A DNA stretch of 64,000 nucleotides from a virus. Positions 57,433-64,000 of the stretch are shown piece after piece. Position 1 is the first letter of the stretch; each line of letters opens with the position of its first letter. Location of the stretch: the IMG/VR virus record IMGVR_UViG_3300009609_000001, positions 1 to 64,000 of that record; one strand, 5' to 3'. The notes below the pieces were generated by a model. That model was not told the origin of the DNA and ran no database searches. It saw nothing but the letters and a program-made list of their open reading frames with translations. The position numbers were made by a program, and so were the translations under genes.

Positions 57433-57632
57433 GGGCTTGTCGCTTTCTCCGCGTCAATCGCGGTCAAACTCTCCACCCCCAGCACGTCGGCCACGTATGC
57501 CTCGTGGGCCAGGTCCATAGCCGTATACGCGCGCCGCTGGCAGACGAGCAGGGCTTCGCGGAACTTGGCGTGCTCGGCCAGGAACGCGGCTCGTGCTTCG
57601 GGGTAGCCGTAGGCTTCGGTGGTGTAGATCAT
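57429..57632 (-). CDS. Hypothetical protein, 67 aa
   Basis: ATG at 57632. MIYTTEAYGYPEARAAFLAE, HAKFREALLVCQRRAYTAMD. Helical. Coupled to the DUF5131 gene. Function unknown. Confidence 0.66.
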   Translation of the reverse strand: MIYTTEAYGYPEARAAFLAEHAKFREALLVCQRRAYTAMDLAHEAYVADVLGVESLTAIDAEKATSP

Positions 57633-58633
57633 GGCGTCGGCTCCGGTTGGATGGCGGGGAACTCGTCCCACGTGCGACCGTCGAGCAGGCGGCCGGCGGC
57701 TTTTTTGCCAACGCGGAATATCGGACAGCGCTCGTCGTTCGATTCGAGCGGCGGGAACCAGACGCGATCACGCTGATTCGCCGCATGGATTGCGGACACG
57801 CCGCGGCGCTGCGAGTCATCCTGATCCCCTGGTGCCCACTCGCCCCACTGCTTGAAGAAAAACGGCACGCTAGCAGCTTCGCACTGGTCCCGCAGCGAGC
57901 GTGCCCAATCGGGGTGCATCGGGCGTGCGCCGTGGCCCGACTCGCCGCCAACGATTACCCACGAAATTCCGGTCAAATCAATCTCGCCCAAATCCTCAAG
58001 CAGCGGTTCAATCGACAGGAACCGCACAGCGGCAAGCGTATGGCGCAAGTGGTCGATCCGATCGATTCGTTTGCGATCTTCCACGCTCACGCCCAGCCAG
58101 ACGTTCGGCAGTGGCCAGGGTCCGGTATGCACGGCATCGGCGGCAATATCGCCATCCTCCACCATGTTTCCAGCGCAGACGGCAATGGCGAATTTCAGAT
58201 CGACAGGCTCACCAGCGTATTTGCGTTCGCCCTGGAAATACCTTGCCATACGCTCGGCTCTTTTTGTGAGCACCTGAAACGTGTGCTGCGGACAAACGGC
58301 CATCACGCCGAAAACTCGATCGATGAACCAGTCGGGCACATCATCATGGAACAGGTCGCTCATGGAATTGACGAACACCCGCTTTGGCTTTCGCCATTGC
58401 AGCGGAATCGACAGCGCCTCGGCGTTCAAGTTCACCTTGCCGGTCCACAGCACCTTGCCGTTCGTTTTCTTCGTCGTGCCGGAATACTTCGCCTGCCCCA
58501 TCGCCTCAAGGCGGGCCGCGGTGCGCATGGCATAGCAGTTGTGGCAGCCCGGAGAAACGATCGAGCATCCCGCGATTGGATTCCATGTTGCGTCGGTCCA
58601 CTCGATTTGCGAATTAGCTGCCATCGTGTTCAC
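57629..58633 (-). CDS. DUF5131 (phage Gp37/Gp68-like) protein, 334 aa
   Basis: IEWTDATWNPIAGCSIVSPG then CHNCYAMR: the C-(x7)-C-xx-C motif typical of DUF5131, which has been likened to radical SAM/4Fe-4S enzymes. TNGKVLWTGKVNLN, VNSMSDLFHDDVPDWF and VLTKRAERM are further family segments. GTG at 58633 or ATG at 58624 may start it. Sits with three DNA methyltransferase genes, so a DNA-base modification role is a reasonable guess. Confidence 0.85.
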   Translation of the reverse strand: MNTMAANSQIEWTDATWNPIAGCSIVSPGCHNCYAMRTAARLEAMGQAKYSGTTKKTNGKVLWTGKVNLNAEALSIPLQWRKPKRVFVNSMSDLFHDDVPDWFIDRVFGVMAVCPQHTFQVLTKRAERMARYFQGERKYAGEPVDLKFAIAVCAGNMVEDGDIAADAVHTGPWPLPNVWLGVSVEDRKRIDRIDHLRHTLAAVRFLSIEPLLEDLGEIDLTGISWVIVGGESGHGARPMHPDWARSLRDQCEAASVPFFFKQWGEWAPGDQDDSQRRGVSAIHAANQRDRVWFPPLESNDERCPIFRVGKKAAGRLLDGRTWDEFPAIQPEPTP

Positions 58634-58649: not shown

Positions 58650-59522
58650 TCATGGGGACTCGGCGAATAGCGGGTGTCGCGTCTCTGCGTAGCTGGGTCC
58701 GTTCATCAAAAGGACTTCGACGGCTCGCGTGCTATTTTCTCCGCGATTTCCTAGCTGCCCGTGCGCCATCGACTTCGCCACGTCAAACGTCCGTTTCGTC
58801 CATCCGCTGTAAAGACCATCCAACCGCTCGTGGTCGTAATAACTGACGACAACGCGCGCCGCATGGAACCTTTCCAGCAACGCCGCCAGTCGCTCGTGGT
58901 CTGCGTCCGAAAAGTCGTGGACGTAGTTTCCTTTTTTCACCAAATACGGCGGGTCGCAATAAATCGCGGTGTCACCCGCGTCGTCAATCCGCTCAATGAT
59001 TTCAAAGGCATCGCGGCAAAGGATCGTAACGGCCTGAAGGCGCTTGCGCCATGCCGGAATGCTTTGCACTGCGGAATTCCAGCGGACTCCCTCATGCCCG
59101 CCACCAGTTGTGTATCGCACGCCCGGCTTGTGAATCGTGTCGCTCGTGCCGGAAACTCCATTCCTTCCGAACCACGAGACAACAAAATAGTCGAATGCTC
59201 TTTCAAGTGGAGACTCGCATTCGGCCTGAAGGCGCTCCCAAGAATCTGTCAATTGCTGCTCTGAGAACAAAACACGACGCAAGCGCCGGTACAGTTTCGG
59301 ACCATCGGCGCTTTGAATAACGCGAGCCAAATTGACCAAATCGCCATGCAAATCGTTTACTCTCTCGTGCGACGCGCGCGGCTTGTTAAGCAGGACGGAC
59401 ATCGAACCGCAGAATGGCTCCCAGTAGCCGACGTGCGGCCCAAGTTCGGCAACGATGTCAGCCGCGAGATTTCTCTTGCCGCCAAACCACGGTGCCAGGG
59501 CTGTGATAGTCGGTGCATTCAT
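58650..59522 (-). CDS. D12-class adenine DNA methyltransferase (Dam-like), 290 aa
   Basis: ALAPWFGGKRNLAADIVAEL is the SAM-binding N-terminal block; WEPFCGSMSVLL follows; the catalytic DPPY is in AIYCDPPYLVKKGNYVHDFS. D12 fold, N6-adenine modification. Probably protects phage DNA from host restriction or has a regulatory role. Confidence 0.9.
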   Translation of the reverse strand: MNAPTITALAPWFGGKRNLAADIVAELGPHVGYWEPFCGSMSVLLNKPRASHERVNDLHGDLVNLARVIQSADGPKLYRRLRRVLFSEQQLTDSWERLQAECESPLERAFDYFVVSWFGRNGVSGTSDTIHKPGVRYTTGGGHEGVRWNSAVQSIPAWRKRLQAVTILCRDAFEIIERIDDAGDTAIYCDPPYLVKKGNYVHDFSDADHERLAALLERFHAARVVVSYYDHERLDGLYSGWTKRTFDVAKSMAHGQLGNRGENSTRAVEVLLMNGPSYAETRHPLFAESP

Positions 59523-59728
59523 CGCTTGGCAAACTCCCTCAGCCGCTTAGCAATCTCCGCCTCAGGCATGAGCCACAACGAAGCGCCGACCGCCTCTTGC
59601 AGCAGATCCCGCGCGGCGTCGGTCCCTTGCGGCAGGTTGCGGCTCTCGCGGATGATCTTGCAGCACTTGCCGATGCCGTCGATTTCGACGACCGCGGCGC
59701 AGGCTTGGGCTTCGGTGGGGGTTAGCAT
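59519..59728 (-). CDS. Hypothetical protein, 69 aa
   Basis: MLTPTEAQACAAVVEIDGIG, KCCKIIRESRNLPQGTDAAR and LWLMPEAEIAKRLREFAKR. Overlaps its upstream neighbour by 7 bases and the methyltransferase by 4. Function unknown. Confidence 0.66.
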   Translation of the reverse strand: MLTPTEAQACAAVVEIDGIGKCCKIIRESRNLPQGTDAARDLLQEAVGASLWLMPEAEIAKRLREFAKR

Positions 59729-60111
59729 GCTTGCGATTCCTTTGCTCGTTGACGCCGCTCTTTCAACCGCTCGCGCATCGCAATCCACCGCTTGGCATCT
59801 TCGCCGGGCCTGTATTCGTCCGTGTCGCTGTCGTACTCGGAATCCTCTGCGATGCACTCGTCGAGATATTCCCGCCAACCTCCCGGCCCCAGGCTGACTT
59901 CGTGCGCCTTGCCGAATTCCTTCCTGTCCACGTCGCACGCCATACAGCACTTCTCGTGGTTGGCTTCGCCCTCGAATACGTCGAAGTGGTCAACGTACTT
60001 TTCTCCTGGCTGGATTCTGCCGCCGCACGAGCTGCACTTATGCTGCTTGCGCGCCGTGCGTTCGGTTTCATTCCAGATGGTGCAGTATTCGTCGAAGTCA
60101 ATCACGCACAT
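59722..60111 (-). CDS. Zinc-binding protein, 129 aa
   Basis: ATG at 60111 with TTTTGGAGAGAACC upstream. TARKQHKCSSCGGRIQPGEK, FEGEANHEKCCMACDVDRKE give CxxC-H-CCxxC; the C terminus is highly charged (RERLKERRQRAKESQAC). Sits directly after a leader hairpin (60129-60155). Confidence 0.72.
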   Translation of the reverse strand: MCVIDFDEYCTIWNETERTARKQHKCSSCGGRIQPGEKYVDHFDVFEGEANHEKCCMACDVDRKEFGKAHEVSLGPGGWREYLDECIAEDSEYDSDTDEYRPGEDAKRWIAMRERLKERRQRAKESQAC

Positions 60112-60121
60112 GGTTCTCTCC

Positions 60122-60155
60122 AAAACAAGCCCGGCTTAGATACTCACCACCGGGC
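60122..60155 (-). promoter_or_regulatory. Leader hairpin with U-rich run and SD between csrA and 59722-60111
   Basis: On the minus strand: GCCCGG (60155-60150), 15-nt loop, CCGGGC (60134-60129), TTGTTTT, then GGAGAGAACC and ATG. Near-identical downstream text to 56184-56232 (TTTTGGAGA-ACC). Located between csrA stop (60165) and the start of 59722-60111. Confidence 0.6.
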
Positions 60156-60164
60156 GAGGCTTTC

Positions 60165-60383
60165 CTAACCGGCTTCATGCCCGCCGCTCACTCCAGCGGC
60201 TCCGTCCGATGCGTCTCCACACGCAGCGGTCCTGTCGTGATTCAACTCGCGCCGCAAGACGCTCAGGTCTCGCGGGGCTTGAACGCCGATTCGCACCCGG
60301 TCGCCCTGGATGCGCACGACGCAAATCGAAATATGGCTTCCGATGTCGATGAATTCCCCGGTACGACGCGATAAAACTAAGAT
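60165..60383 (-). CDS. csrA: CsrA/RsmA translational regulator with apparent AUC start, 72 aa
   Basis: Reads LVLSRRTGEFIDIGSHISIC then VVRIQGDRVRIGVQAPRDLS and VLRRELN, a textbook CsrA (conserved L4, VRIG(V/I)xAP and R44). GGAGG ends 6 bases before ATC at 60383, and no ATG, GTG or TTG lies in frame nearby, so ATC is the apparent start. The last ~22 residues (from ACGDASDGAAG) are a Gly/Ala tail beyond the usual end. CsrA binds GGA-rich hairpins to block ribosome entry; it could target phage or host leaders. Confidence 0.85.
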   Translation of the reverse strand: MLVLSRRTGEFIDIGSHISICVVRIQGDRVRIGVQAPRDLSVLRRELNHDRTAACGDASDGAAGVSGGHEAG

Positions 60384-61123
60384 GGGACACCTCCTTGCGA
60401 TGGAAAATTGAGCGATGCAAACTCTCCGTACACCGTGCTGGCGGCAGCGTCATATGCCTTAGCAGCGGCAACCTCATCTGTGAACATTCCCAGGTGGATC
60501 GGCTTCTTGTCCTTGTGCAGACACGCTCGCCACTTGGCGCATTTTGAATTGAAGTGGACGCCCTTGAACTTCGATGTTTTCGCGTCACGTCGCTTGCGAG
60601 TGTTTCGCATCTGCTGAACGCGGGTCGCCCAGCGGCAGTTATCCGGCTCATAATTGCCGTTCACATCCTTACGGTCGATTTCGAGATTCTCCGCGTAGCC
60701 GTTCGCATTGGCCCAATCGCGGAACGCCTCGAAACTAGCCTCCCACTCAGGACAGACACGGATTCCACGCCCACCGTAATACTCGTAAGCCTGCGATGTC
60801 TCGCAATTGCACCTGTTTTTCATGTGGCACCAAATGCCATGCAATCGCGTTTTCGATTCTCCGTGGGTCTGAATATGCGATCCGATCTCAGTCGCCGCAC
60901 ACTCTCTTGAGCAATAAATACGCTCTGCGCTTGGCGAGAATCCAAACTCGCGTCCGCATGCCTTACAGGTTGCCTTAGACGGAGGATGTACACACTTGCG
61001 AGAGCAGTATTTGGCCGTTGCAAGACGCCCAACATGCACCGAGAATGGCGAACCGCACCGCTGGCAGGTTGTCTCAACCTGGGGATTCCGCTTGCGTTCT
61101 GAAAACAGCATTGTCTGTCTCAT
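60377..61123 (-). CDS. HNH-AP2 homing-type endonuclease, 248 aa
   Basis: N-terminal zinc elements (CQRCGSPFSVH, CKACGREFGF), HNH core LHGIWCHMKNRCNCETS, YGGRGIRVCPEWE and LEIDRKDVNGNYEPDNCRWA, then an AP2 DNA-binding domain (FKGVHFNSKCAKWRACLHKD, AAAKAYDAAASTVYGEFASL). Its stop TAG (60379-60377) overlaps the csrA start, and it contains the csrA SD. The gene is inserted between csrA and 61120-61659. Confidence 0.93.
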   Translation of the reverse strand: MRQTMLFSERKRNPQVETTCQRCGSPFSVHVGRLATAKYCSRKCVHPPSKATCKACGREFGFSPSAERIYCSRECAATEIGSHIQTHGESKTRLHGIWCHMKNRCNCETSQAYEYYGGRGIRVCPEWEASFEAFRDWANANGYAENLEIDRKDVNGNYEPDNCRWATRVQQMRNTRKRRDAKTSKFKGVHFNSKCAKWRACLHKDKKPIHLGMFTDEVAAAKAYDAAASTVYGEFASLNFPSQGGVPS

Positions 61124-61659
61124 GCGGATTCCTCCAACAGCGACCTCTGCACGACGGGCGGCGGCTCAGCGTCGATGTGCATTACGATTCCCGTGATGTA
61201 GCTGGACCACGCCCACCCTCTGACTTGCTTCAGCGACTCAACGAAATTCTCGCGCGGAAATATGGCGGCAAGCGACATTAGCGCGCGAACGACGTTTAGC
61301 ATCGCGCCGGCTTCATCTTGGCATTTCGCTGCCGCTTGCAGTGCTTCAAGTGCGGCGGACGAATCACAGGTCGATTCATTTAGGGCTACGACGGGCGATT
61401 CCTTTTTCAGAGACCAAATTGCGAATAGGCAGTTGAGCGTTGCATATGGGCAGTGGATCGCCGGGCATTCTTCAGCCAGTCGCAGCGAATTGATTGCCAT
61501 TCGGATGCTGCTGTGCGCAGACTTGAGACCGGGCTTTTCGTATTTGCGAGGTCCAATCGCGTCGATGAGAAACGCCGATGGAGATTCTCTGGTGCGAGCA
61601 TCGATAAGCACAAACTCGTTGTCCATCACATGCGACTCGAATGGTTTCCAGTAATCCAT
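61120..61659 (-). CDS. Hypothetical protein, 179 aa
   Basis: ATG at 61659 (TGATG). MDYWKPFESHVMDNEFVLID, PRKYEKPGLKSAHSSIRMAI, a Cys-containing CPAIHCPYATLNCLFAIWSL. Helical. Function unknown. Confidence 0.68.
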   Translation of the reverse strand: MDYWKPFESHVMDNEFVLIDARTRESPSAFLIDAIGPRKYEKPGLKSAHSSIRMAINSLRLAEECPAIHCPYATLNCLFAIWSLKKESPVVALNESTCDSSAALEALQAAAKCQDEAGAMLNVVRALMSLAAIFPRENFVESLKQVRGWAWSSYITGIVMHIDAEPPPVVQRSLLEESA

Positions 61660-61880
61660 CACGCTGCCCCCATCGCCGCGTCCAATCGTTCCCCAATCTC
61701 CACACACTCCGCATCGCCGACCATGAAAAGCTCCCGGCAGGTCGTCGCCGCAGCTTCGCGCATGTGCTCCCGTTCGGCCAGCAACTCGCGGAGCATGGCG
61801 GCGGCTTCGTGGAGGTTTGATCCTGGCACGAATTCGCGCTGCGACCACGAGTTGATTTCGGTTAGGCGTTGGGGGGTCAT
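61659..61880 (-). CDS. Helical protein, 73 aa
   Basis: MTPQRLTEINSWSQREFVPG, LHEAAAMLRELLAEREHMRE. Ends sharing a base with the next ATG. Function unknown. Confidence 0.66.
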   Translation of the reverse strand: MTPQRLTEINSWSQREFVPGSNLHEAAAMLRELLAEREHMREAAATTCRELFMVGDAECVEIGERLDAAMGAA

Positions 61881-61882
61881 CG

Positions 61883-62563
61883 TCAGTCCGTGAATTGGAA
61901 TACTTCCTGCTCAAGCCGACGTGCGGCGATTTCGCAATAGCGCTCTTCAATCTCGATTCCAATGGCTTTGCGGCCCAGCAGCTTCGCGGCTTCCAGCGTT
62001 GTCCCGGTGCCAGCCTGCGGATCAATAACGCCGTGGTCGCCATACTGGTTGACCAGCCATTTGACGTGCTCTAGCCGCCGTGGGCTTGGGTGGGGCAGAT
62101 TCTCATAGTCGATGCCGTCCGATGTTCCTTGACCCCTGCCGGTGTGCTGCCGCTTGTTGGAATTGTTCCTTGCCACAATTTCGCCGCTCAACACACGCAA
62201 GCCTTCCCGCGACGGCGGCGGCTCACCGAACACGTAGGCAATGTCTGAGCCAACCAGCACGCGCCCGCGATAGGATGGTCTCGCATACCGCAGCCAGCAC
62301 GCGCGAATGAACGGCAGCGCCGGCGGCACAGCCAAGAGAAATCTGGGGTCGCTCGTGCATCCCATATGGACGACGAGCGTTTTGACGGTCAAGGCATCGC
62401 ACGTCTCGCGAAAAAGCTGCTGCGGGTCGGCAACTCCCGGAAAGACGGAGTTCGGCCATACCGGATCGCAAATGCAAACCGGCGGCTGCTGAATCGACGG
62501 CAGCACCTCACGGCAATCACCGCAATAAATCTCGATGCCGTTCCGTGAGTAGTAAGGGGTCAT
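61883..62563 (-). CDS. N4/N6-type DNA methyltransferase, 226 aa
   Basis: Starts TPYYSRNGIEIYCGDCREVL, with catalytic motif DPVW in VCICDPVWPN (usual DPPY/W), a target-recognition middle and SAM motif VIDPQAGTGTTLEAAKLLGR then AIGIEIEERYCEIAARRL. Motif order (catalytic first, SAM later) fits the beta-class. The DPVW variant deserves a check for activity. Confidence 0.86.
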   Translation of the reverse strand: MTPYYSRNGIEIYCGDCREVLPSIQQPPVCICDPVWPNSVFPGVADPQQLFRETCDALTVKTLVVHMGCTSDPRFLLAVPPALPFIRACWLRYARPSYRGRVLVGSDIAYVFGEPPPSREGLRVLSGEIVARNNSNKRQHTGRGQGTSDGIDYENLPHPSPRRLEHVKWLVNQYGDHGVIDPQAGTGTTLEAAKLLGRKAIGIEIEERYCEIAARRLEQEVFQFTD

Positions 62564-62730
62564 TCGCAGATCCTCACAACAATCGGCTCAGACTCCAGCT
62601 CGTCGACCAGCAGCACCGACAGCGGATAGCCGGTGTCGATGATGCTCAGCACGTCCAGGGCGGGTACGAGCCGCTCGAGCTCGGCGTCTGCCAGGGCGTT
62701 GATGCGGGCGTTGTATTCGGATTCGGTCAT
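62560..62730 (-). CDS. Hypothetical protein, 56 aa
   Basis: MTESEYNARINALADAELER, LVPALDVLSIIDTGYPLSVL. Start overlaps the upstream stop (TGATG). Function unknown. Confidence 0.62.
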   Translation of the reverse strand: MTESEYNARINALADAELERLVPALDVLSIIDTGYPLSVLLVDELESEPIVVRICE

Positions 62731-62966
62731 CAGTTTCGTCCAGCCCTGCGACTTGCCAGCGAGCATTGCAGGTGCTCAATTGCCCGCTCCATTGCGTACT
62801 CTTGCAATTCAGGTTCGGGGACATTGACCCAGAGCGAACAATCGTCCACGCCTTCACGCTGAATAATTCCGACCGTAACCAGCGCGACGCAGTTATCCGC
62901 CGCTACCTCGTGGGTAACTCCAATCGACTCTTGCACGTCGTCCGGTATGTCGTCCATTTCGTTCAT
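62730..62966 (-). CDS. Hypothetical protein, 78 aa
   Basis: ATG at 62966. MNEMDDIPDDVQESIGVTHE, VALVTVGIIQREGVDDCSLW and YAMERAIEHLQCSLAS. Acidic N terminus. Function unknown. Confidence 0.66.
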   Translation of the reverse strand: MNEMDDIPDDVQESIGVTHEVAADNCVALVTVGIIQREGVDDCSLWVNVPEPELQEYAMERAIEHLQCSLASRRAGRN

Positions 62967-63049
62967 GCGTTTCGCTCCCTCACGCACCCAAGCCAGGTAA
63001 TCGCCGCGACGCAAAGGGCACAGAATCCGATAGCGGAGAGCATGGTCAT
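62963..63049 (-). CDS. Membrane micro-protein, 28 aa
   Basis: ATG at 63049 overlaps the stop of 63046-63408; TGA at 62963. MTMLSAIGFCALCVAAITWL is a single TM with a short basic end (CVRERNA). Coupled on both sides, so probably translated. Confidence 0.58.
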   Translation of the reverse strand: MTMLSAIGFCALCVAAITWLGCVRERNA

Positions 63050-63408
63050 ACGACGCACTCCGATAGTAGTTCCCGCAACGTAATCCCCTCCTCGCGCGCC
63101 ATCTTCTCGAAAGCCAGCCGCATCTTTTTCAACGCCCGCAGTTCCGATTTCTGAATTGCTCGCCGGCACACGCCAAAGCGCTGCGCGAGCGATTCGTAGG
63201 TGACGGCGCCGGTTTGCTGGTACGGTCGCTCGACGATCAGCCCCCGCGCGGCCGACGACGAAGCGTGATCGCCGGTCCGCGCGGGTACCCGTTCTTGGCC
63301 GACTTGCTCGTGTTTTGTCGCCGGCAGACGGTGCGCGTCAGGGTTGGGCAGGAAACCTGATTGCGAGCCGCTGCCGGCGGTTGTTGGGGTCGTGGGGACC
63401 ATGCTCAT
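63046..63408 (-). CDS. Sigma region-4-like HTH protein, 120 aa
   Basis: ATG at 63408. A disordered N-terminal half is followed by TYESLAQRFGVCRRAIQKSE and LRALKKMRLAFEKMAREEGI, the sigma-70 region-4 HTH pattern (recognition helix plus K-R basic patch). It may redirect host RNA polymerase or act as an anti-sigma-like or small sigma factor. Its stop overlaps the 28-aa gene. Confidence 0.72.
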   Translation of the reverse strand: MSMVPTTPTTAGSGSQSGFLPNPDAHRLPATKHEQVGQERVPARTGDHASSSAARGLIVERPYQQTGAVTYESLAQRFGVCRRAIQKSELRALKKMRLAFEKMAREEGITLRELLSECVV

Positions 63409-64000
63409 ACTGATTCCATGATTCGACGCCCTATCCACTCCGCGCACGCCGGGAACACGCTGTTGCCGATTCCTCTAATGCGCTCCACGTAATCGGGAAA
63501 CCCTGCGCGGCTTCTAAGTCCGCGGGATGCAAGTAGGTGTGCCCGGTCTGCTGCTTGTACCAGTCGCGGAGATTCAGTGTCCCGCCTTTGGGCCTGCATG
63601 ATTTGCCGCCCTTCCAGTCCGTGGCCGTTGGCGTCGGCAAGTTCGGCGAGCAAGAACACTCGTTCCCGCTCGTGGTCAGCCCCAAAGCAACAGGCGCGCA
63701 GTCGGAAGGGCAGGACAGCGTAACCAAGCGATTCAAGGCCAGCTCGGAATCTCCACCAAGGCCAGGGAGCATCGCGCCGGATGTGCGACGGATTCTCTCG
63801 GACCACAAGGCGCGGGCGAATCGCATCAACAATGCGGAGGAACTCACCGCCGAGGCTCGATTGACTTGCGACACCGTAACCGCGCGCTCCGCTGTTCTCT
63901 TGGCACGGGTCTCCGCCAGCGATGCAGTCAACTCTCCATTGCTCAATTGGCTCTGGCGGGAAGGTTCGCACGTCGTCCCATCGCCGCACGTTGGGCCAAT
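63405..64000 (-). CDS. C5 cytosine DNA methyltransferase, N-terminal part outside window
   Basis: The frame reads WPNVRRWDDVRTF at the right edge and continues outside. Catalytic motif IV GGDPCQENSGA (Cys in PCQ), motif VI-like ENPSHI, VLPFRLRACCFGADHERERV (motif VIII) and C-terminal GIGNSVFPACAEWIGRRI (motifs IX/X) are clear. About 195 residues are visible. It would make m5C in phage DNA. Confidence 0.9.
   Translation of the reverse strand, partial: WPNVRRWDDVRTFPPEPIEQWRVDCIAGGDPCQENSGARGYGVASQSSLGGEFLRIVDAIRPRLVVRENPSHIRRDAPWPWWRFRAGLESLGYAVLPFRLRACCFGADHERERVFLLAELADANGHGLEGRQIMQAQRRDTESPRLVQAADRAHLLASRGLRSRAGFPDYVERIRGIGNSVFPACAEWIGRRIMESV

Follow-up and report, generated by a model that had tools for sequence, protein, structure and literature searches.

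An Apparent AUC Start Codon in a Phage csrA Gene and the Recurrence of AUU, AUC, and AUA Starts in the csrA Family

We have found that the AUC start of a csrA gene carried by a phage is not a one-off: AUH codons (AUU, AUC, or AUA) recur at the beginning of csrA in differing phage lineages and in one bacterial lineage. The gene lies in the window, the 64,000-nucleotide stretch of DNA analyzed here (positions 1 to 64,000 of IMG/VR virus record IMGVR_UViG_3300009609_000001). Judged from its sequence and from its relatives, it is likely that this csrA works and that its translation starts at AUC, a weak AUH start that would be rescued by an extended Shine-Dalgarno (SD) sequence. The odd start is probably real, because other phage csrA genes and one bacterial lineage use AUU, AUC, or AUA, often with strong ribosome-binding sites, and it probably keeps the regulator scarce.

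The phage csrA gene and its start region

The features of the region are as follows.

60165 to 60383, minus strand: csrA, 72 codons, with an ATC start at 60383-60381 and a TAG stop at 60167-60165; CsrA family matches
60381 to 60383, minus strand: ATC at the CsrA Met1 position, from sequence and alignment; the same ATC is present in IMGVR_UViG_3300009678_000061
60388 to 60396, minus strand: extended SD, AAGGAGGTG, ending 4 nt before the ATC; its GGAGG core at 60394-60390 ends 6 nt before the ATC
60165 to 60317, minus strand: internal in-frame GTG open reading frame (ORF) of 50 amino acids, from the ORF list, lacking the N-terminal part of CsrA
60377 to 61123, minus strand: HNH endonuclease-like gene immediately upstream of csrA (PHROG HNH endonuclease, 1.3e-50), without a Pfam family match
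59722 to 60111, minus strand: downstream gene, PHROG 7314-like, with an ATG at 60111

The csrA frame (60383-60165, minus strand) reads ILVLSRRTGEFIDIGSHISICVVRIQGDRVRIGVQAPRDLSVLRREL... and ends at TAG. An earlier note, made from the letters alone, had called the CsrA family match strong, and profile searches bear this out: the product matches PF02599 at 6.7e-18 (64.8 bits against a cutoff of 27), with residues 2 to 48 aligned to Pfam positions 2 to 48, the PHROG CsrA-like regulator at 2.3e-14, and CsrA/RsmA chains in the PDB at 7.7e-10 to 4.6e-8. In one alignment of the phage protein with nine other CsrA proteins, residues L2, L4, R6, G9, I14, G33, A36, P37, R44, and E46 are invariant, and dimeric binding to GGA-containing RNA is predicted from homology. 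This is the single CsrA match in the whole 100,267-base virus record.

The ATC stands at the codon homologous to Met1 and has no canonical in-frame start upstream. The frame stays open for 22 codons above the ATC, and none of these is ATG, GTG, or TTG; inside the gene, a GTG at 60317 is the only canonical in-frame start. The window was scanned for ATH codons that follow any of four SD-like cores at a spacing of 4 to 9 nt and begin an open frame of 50 codons or more. Four distinct sites were found, and the csrA ATC alone lacked a canonical in-frame start upstream. A phage-encoded initiation factor 3 (IF3) or phage tRNAs were also considered and rejected: there was no IF3_C match in the 100-kb record and no tRNA in the window.

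The leader directly before the ATC is AAGGAGGTGTCCC. It contains a 9-nt match to the anti-SD sequence (60396-60388), with AAGGAGG 6 nt before the ATC, and thus provides a strong, extended SD at proper spacing; the coordinates and strand of the gene in the earlier note were right, as was the distance of 6 bases from GGAGG to the ATC. The RNA of the start region is less stably folded than 190 of 200 shuffled sequences (z = +1.5). In its minimum-energy fold, which is weak and represents 3% of the ensemble, the SD is partly paired, and the centroid leaves both the SD and the ATC open. CsrA is a global regulator that is translationally autoregulated, with the consensus site RUACARGGAUGU (available text of PMC7652899). 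By eye, 8 of 12 positions at the csrA SD agree with this consensus, and its GGA core lies outside any stable hairpin loop in the fold. Since the GGA core to which CsrA binds is part of this SD, the protein may also repress its own start site.

Start codons of viral csrA genes

Most csrA homologues begin with ATG. Among 79 viral relatives (the best 80 loci minus L065, whose match begins at residue 2 and which has an in-frame ATG two codons upstream), there were 72 ATG, 2 GTG, 3 ATT, 1 ATA, and 1 ATC starts, a ranking that favors ATH because the query begins with Ile; the single ATC is that of IMGVR_UViG_3300009678_000061. In phage and plasmid records, 12 of 13 csrA stretches start with ATG and the thirteenth, L388, is without a clear start, whereas the present csrA begins with ATC. 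The earlier note had proposed that homologues starting with ATG would reduce the AUC to an artifact. ATG does predominate; by itself this is not proof of an artifact, since close relatives switch between ATG or GTG and ATT.

We scanned a collection of viral contigs with one pattern (GGAG, 3 to 10 nt, a codon, and the CsrA N-terminal motif) in which the start codon alone was varied among the single-base neighbors of ATG. The ATH set gave 27 stretches, every one of which read as csrA (21 ATT, 4 ATC, and 2 ATA); the same pattern with AAG, ACG, or AGG gave 0 in the viral contigs. Therefore, AUH codons are tolerated as csrA starts and AAG, ACG, and AGG are not. CTG, GTG, and TTG together gave 117 matches (86 GTG, 31 TTG, and 0 CTG), with 109 (81 GTG and 28 TTG) passing the CsrA filter, and ATG gave at least 120. 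The visible upstream open frame was free of ATG, GTG, and TTG in 21 of the 27 viral ATH genes, although for one of them, L098, just 6 codons of that frame were visible.

A tree was built from 264 csrA rows, of which 33 have AUH starts. It requires no fewer than 22 changes of start class (21 when the Leptospirillum-type rows are left out), compared with 31 to 33 in five label shuffles; the tree rests on 60 columns, the gene being short, so that the switch count is rough and the number of AUH origins approximate. Close relatives that differ in start class (L098/L035, L093/L091, and L110/L265/L173) point to repeated switches. Starts are also retained: in the phage group around L099, the genes L111, L114, L115, and L119 differ from L099 by 3 to 13 synonymous and 1 or 2 nonsynonymous codons and keep ATT or ATC, as seen in a scan that covered ATH starts only.

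AUH starts in bacterial csrA genes

When the ATH pattern was run on species genomes, it matched 26 stretches, of which 15 were csrA and 11 were not. Twelve of the 15 carry the label Leptospirillum or Nitrospirae (11 ATT and 1 ATA); in 11 comparisons among these 12 Leptospirillum-type loci, again from the ATH-only scan, the gene and the reference disagree at 25 to 33 of 52 third positions. Because the pattern could find ATH starts only, a CsrA family search that was blind to the start codon was run on 61 genomes of one phylum, with the caution that the genome chosen as the center of the sample, G001, itself has an ATT csrA. It found csrA in 34 genomes, with 35 matches starting with ATG (20), ATT (7), ATA (1), GTG (4), and TTG (3). 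No other rows are as near to a Leptospirillum CsrA as the eight with AUH starts; eight of the nine Leptospirillum-type genes thus begin with AUH, the exception being L444, with ATG. In L374, csrA stands between a gene for a flagellin-N protein and fliW, as checked with Pfam, and in three such genomes csrA was the only member of the family found.

The chromosomal csrA genes of L390, L439, L442, and L445 to L449, of Nitrospirota type, carry ATT or ATA starts, with the ATG gene L444 as a close member of the group that makes a natural pair with them. Such genes are probably shortened or overlooked in ordinary gene calling.

Shine-Dalgarno sequences and start codons

The longest anti-SD match averaged 7.05 nt before viral AUH starts (n = 21), 6.03 nt before GTG or TTG starts (n = 72), and 5.73 nt before ATG starts (n = 103, among the matches listed). 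The difference gave P = 0.001 for AUH versus ATG, again among the ATG matches listed, and P = 0.013 for AUH versus GTG/TTG. A GGAGGTG leader was present in 8 of 21 AUH genes, 12 of 72 GTG/TTG genes, and 1 of 103 ATG genes among the matches listed. The filter applied for this comparison dropped 5 of 120 listed ATG, 8 of 117 CTG/GTG/TTG, 0 of 27 viral ATH, and 11 of 26 genome ATH matches, and the merging of copies identical in their first 25 residues left 103, 72, 21, and 11, respectively.

A nearly unchanged leader precedes clearly different csrA genes in L105 (GGGAGGTGTCCC-ATC), L107 (AAGGAGGTGTCCC-ATT), L109 (AAGGAGGTGTGCC-ATC), and L380 (AAGGAGGTGTCCA-ATT). The near relatives L110 (ATT), L265 (GTG), and L173 (ATG) have much the same SD, and compensation by the SD is therefore not universal. 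The csrA of L380 lies near the phage-type genes ERF and YqaJ.

As a control, an ATH scan for HU gave two matches, neither of which was HU by translation. The HU pattern with an SD recognized 3 of 10 sampled HU genes; for the csrA pattern, the figures were 4 of 12 genes in phage and plasmid records and 51 of 79 among the viral loci. Genes other than csrA in the fetched viral loci showed no excess of ATH, with ATT, ATC, and ATA found at SD spacing 15, 20, and 10 times versus an average of 15.3 across 54 other codons, a result with which AUH use of a few percent is compatible; in the same count, there were 187 ATG, 66 GTG, and 12 TTG starts.

The second phage contig and the neighborhood

A second contig, IMGVR_UViG_3300009678_000061, matches the csrA stretch at 96% over 2.36 kb and is identical to it from approximately position 61664 to 60283 (about 1.38 kb), the ATC included. 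Since the block around the ATC is identical in both contigs, they represent one ATC event and not two independent ones. In the 3' part of csrA there are four differences, and because the protein is 100% identical between the two contigs, all four are synonymous. This was the single close relative of the gene found, and a scan with the neighboring genes, run in search of closer phage relatives, led only to this contig again. A distant blastn search with 3.1 kb matched in the methylase stretch only, in seven mycobacteriophage records.

The identical block covers the HNH gene together with the preceding frame and the 5' portion of csrA, and the flanks differ by several percent between the contigs. 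The block may stem from a recent recombination event, to which the HNH gene is perhaps linked. Elsewhere in the window, positions 57629 to 58633 encode a DUF5131 protein with a strong match to the PADLOC candidate-defense models PDC-M41B/M30B, and three DNA methyltransferase-family genes (D12 class, N6_N4, and C5) lie within 5.4 kb at 58650 to 63989.

Alternative explanations of the ATC

The TAG stop of the HNH gene (60379-60377) overlaps the csrA start in another frame (ATCTTAG). This overlap invites the explanation that csrA is reached by reinitiation of ribosomes finishing the HNH gene and not by attraction of ribosomes de novo, and 10 of 21 dereplicated viral AUH csrA genes do have upstream an ORF of 60 or more codons that ends between -25 and +13. 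However, the share is similar for ATG genes (39 of 106, among the matches listed) and for GTG/TTG genes (40 of 75), so that coupling is no special feature of AUH csrA; this comparison used a looser filter, which left 106 listed ATG, 75 GTG/TTG, 21 viral ATH, and 11 genome ATH matches. The extended SD argues for de novo binding, and coupling would in any case be compatible with AUC as the start codon. We regard translational coupling as the explanation of this start as rather unlikely.

The ATC could also be a point mutation of ATG or an error of sequencing or assembly, in which case the gene would be dead or the database wrong. The prevalence of ATG among csrA homologues fits such an origin, and the identity of the shared block means that the second contig, although it has the same base, gives little independent support; a private sequencing error is unlikely given two contigs, unless both came from the same sample. 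Against error or mutation stand the synonymous character of all four csrA differences between the contigs, without an amino acid change, and the retention of AUH by eight of nine members of a diverged bacterial group in the start-blind search. Error or mutation also predicts equal numbers in the neighbor sets, because each set comprises one transition and two transversions; AAG, ACG, and AGG should then be found about as often as ATA, ATC, and ATT, and the observed numbers were 0 and 27. As a general cause of AUH starts in csrA, error or mutation is thus rejected by the comparison of the nine single-base neighbors of ATG in one pattern, and for the present gene we consider it quite improbable. 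The earlier note had left the matter between a genuine regulator with a poor start and a start lost by mutation; the former is now the better supported, given the recurrence of AUH at Met1, the absence of AAG, ACG, and AGG, the SDs that are stronger on average, and the retention of AUH in the bacterial group.

It is very improbable that csrA is expressed by a frameshift from the upstream HNH frame, giving an HNH-CsrA fusion with the SD as frameshift stimulator. The position of the HNH stop codon and the SD-like sequence just before it would suit this explanation, but no obvious slippery heptamer was seen by eye, and in 11 of the 21 dereplicated viral AUH csrA genes no ORF of 60 or more codons ends near the start. 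Moreover, the TAG arises from conserved Leu-Val codons (TTAGTT), and the overlap of the HNH gene with csrA can therefore be incidental.

That translation begins at the GTG at 60317, with the upstream part untranslated, is so improbable as to be barely worth retaining: this codon is the only canonical in-frame start, but it has no SD before it (by eye), and its use would remove residues 1 to 22, much of the CsrA match (LVLSRR..E..IG), including the N-terminal strand that is used for RNA binding in CsrA structures.

Proposed mechanism and its significance

Initiation at AUC, its sensitivity to IF3, and autoregulation are inferred for this csrA. We propose that the initiator tRNA would read the AUH codon of csrA with a mismatch at the third base. 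IF3 rejects third-base mismatches, which makes AUH codons weak; because of this discrimination, csrA would yield a fraction of what an AUG start gives. By holding the ribosome on the AUC, the extended SD would make the site usable. The cell would in this way receive small amounts of a global RNA-binding regulator that, if abundant, would disturb the host or the mRNAs of the phage itself, and by analogy a strong SD may steady this small output.

A more ambitious reading, which we put forward tentatively and consider possible but doubtful, is that csrA resembles infC as a recurrent AUH-start gene. Phages and the Leptospirillum lineage would repeatedly install AUU, AUC, or AUA, often with an extended SD; CsrA output would follow from discrimination by IF3 and, through it, from the state of translation initiation in the cell, and CsrA would compete for the GGA-containing SD. 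If this is true, a phage-borne global regulator reads the translation status of its host, and a class of genes is missed or truncated by gene callers that are limited to ATG, GTG, and TTG. One small regulator family with repeated AUH switches provides a natural experiment on the reasons for which a gene might adopt a poor start. Where surveys of phage CsrA are based on ordinary gene calls, some of the AUH genes may be overlooked or truncated.

Relation to known systems

To our knowledge, few bacterial genes are known to use an AUH start codon; among them are infC and pcnB of Escherichia coli, which start with AUU or AUA. In these two genes, as in infC, ccpN, and cvfC1 of Staphylococcus aureus, the AUH start is combined with a strong or extended SD, as it is here. 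Unlike the present gene, none of them is csrA or phage borne; in csrA, the switch recurs within one family and includes AUC. The available text of PMC13009471 describes extended SDs for S. aureus infC (AUA), cvfC1 (AUU), and ccpN (AUA), and reports that reporters for cvfC1 (AUU) and for ccpN and citZ (both AUA) gave approximately 10% of the AUG level in poor medium, with ccpN reaching up to 30% in rich medium. The chromosomal csrA genes of Leptospirillum and Nitrospirae, which lie beside fliW, resemble the phage gene in having AUU or AUA behind an SD; they differ from it in belonging to a flagellar locus (Pfam checked in L374 only) and not to a phage, and in using ATT or ATA and not ATC.

The earlier note considered CsrA unusual in a phage, a view that does not stand: csrA is reported in 30 of 2,517 phage genomes (available text of PMC7366521), and we found it in 90 phage records, versus 566 for HU with a different query. 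Phage CsrA has been surveyed in GenBank and IMG/VR and proposed to repress host CRISPR-Cas (available text of PMC8450108), and its packaging in the virion has been suggested from one peptide (available text of PMC9144972). As far as the available text of these three sources describes them, the CsrA/RsmA proteins of Pseudomonas phages F116 and phi297, Vibrio phage D65, and Burkholderia phage JC1 share with the present protein the family, the Met1 position, and the small phage gene. In the open-access literature searched, we found no report of an AUH start for csrA or of AUH recurrence in phages. CsrA in phages and AUU or AUA starts are thus each already known, and the AUH start of csrA is new as far as we could find.

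Two further loci were observed. In L365, a Clostridiaceae metagenome-assembled genome, genes for a flagellin-N protein and fliW precede a csrA with an apparent ATA start. The planctomycete Adhaeretor mobilis (L358 and L389 to L406) has 13 CsrA-family matches, with an internal TGA at one place in these loci, and one of its csrA genes has an apparent ATA start behind AAGGAGGGAAAG.
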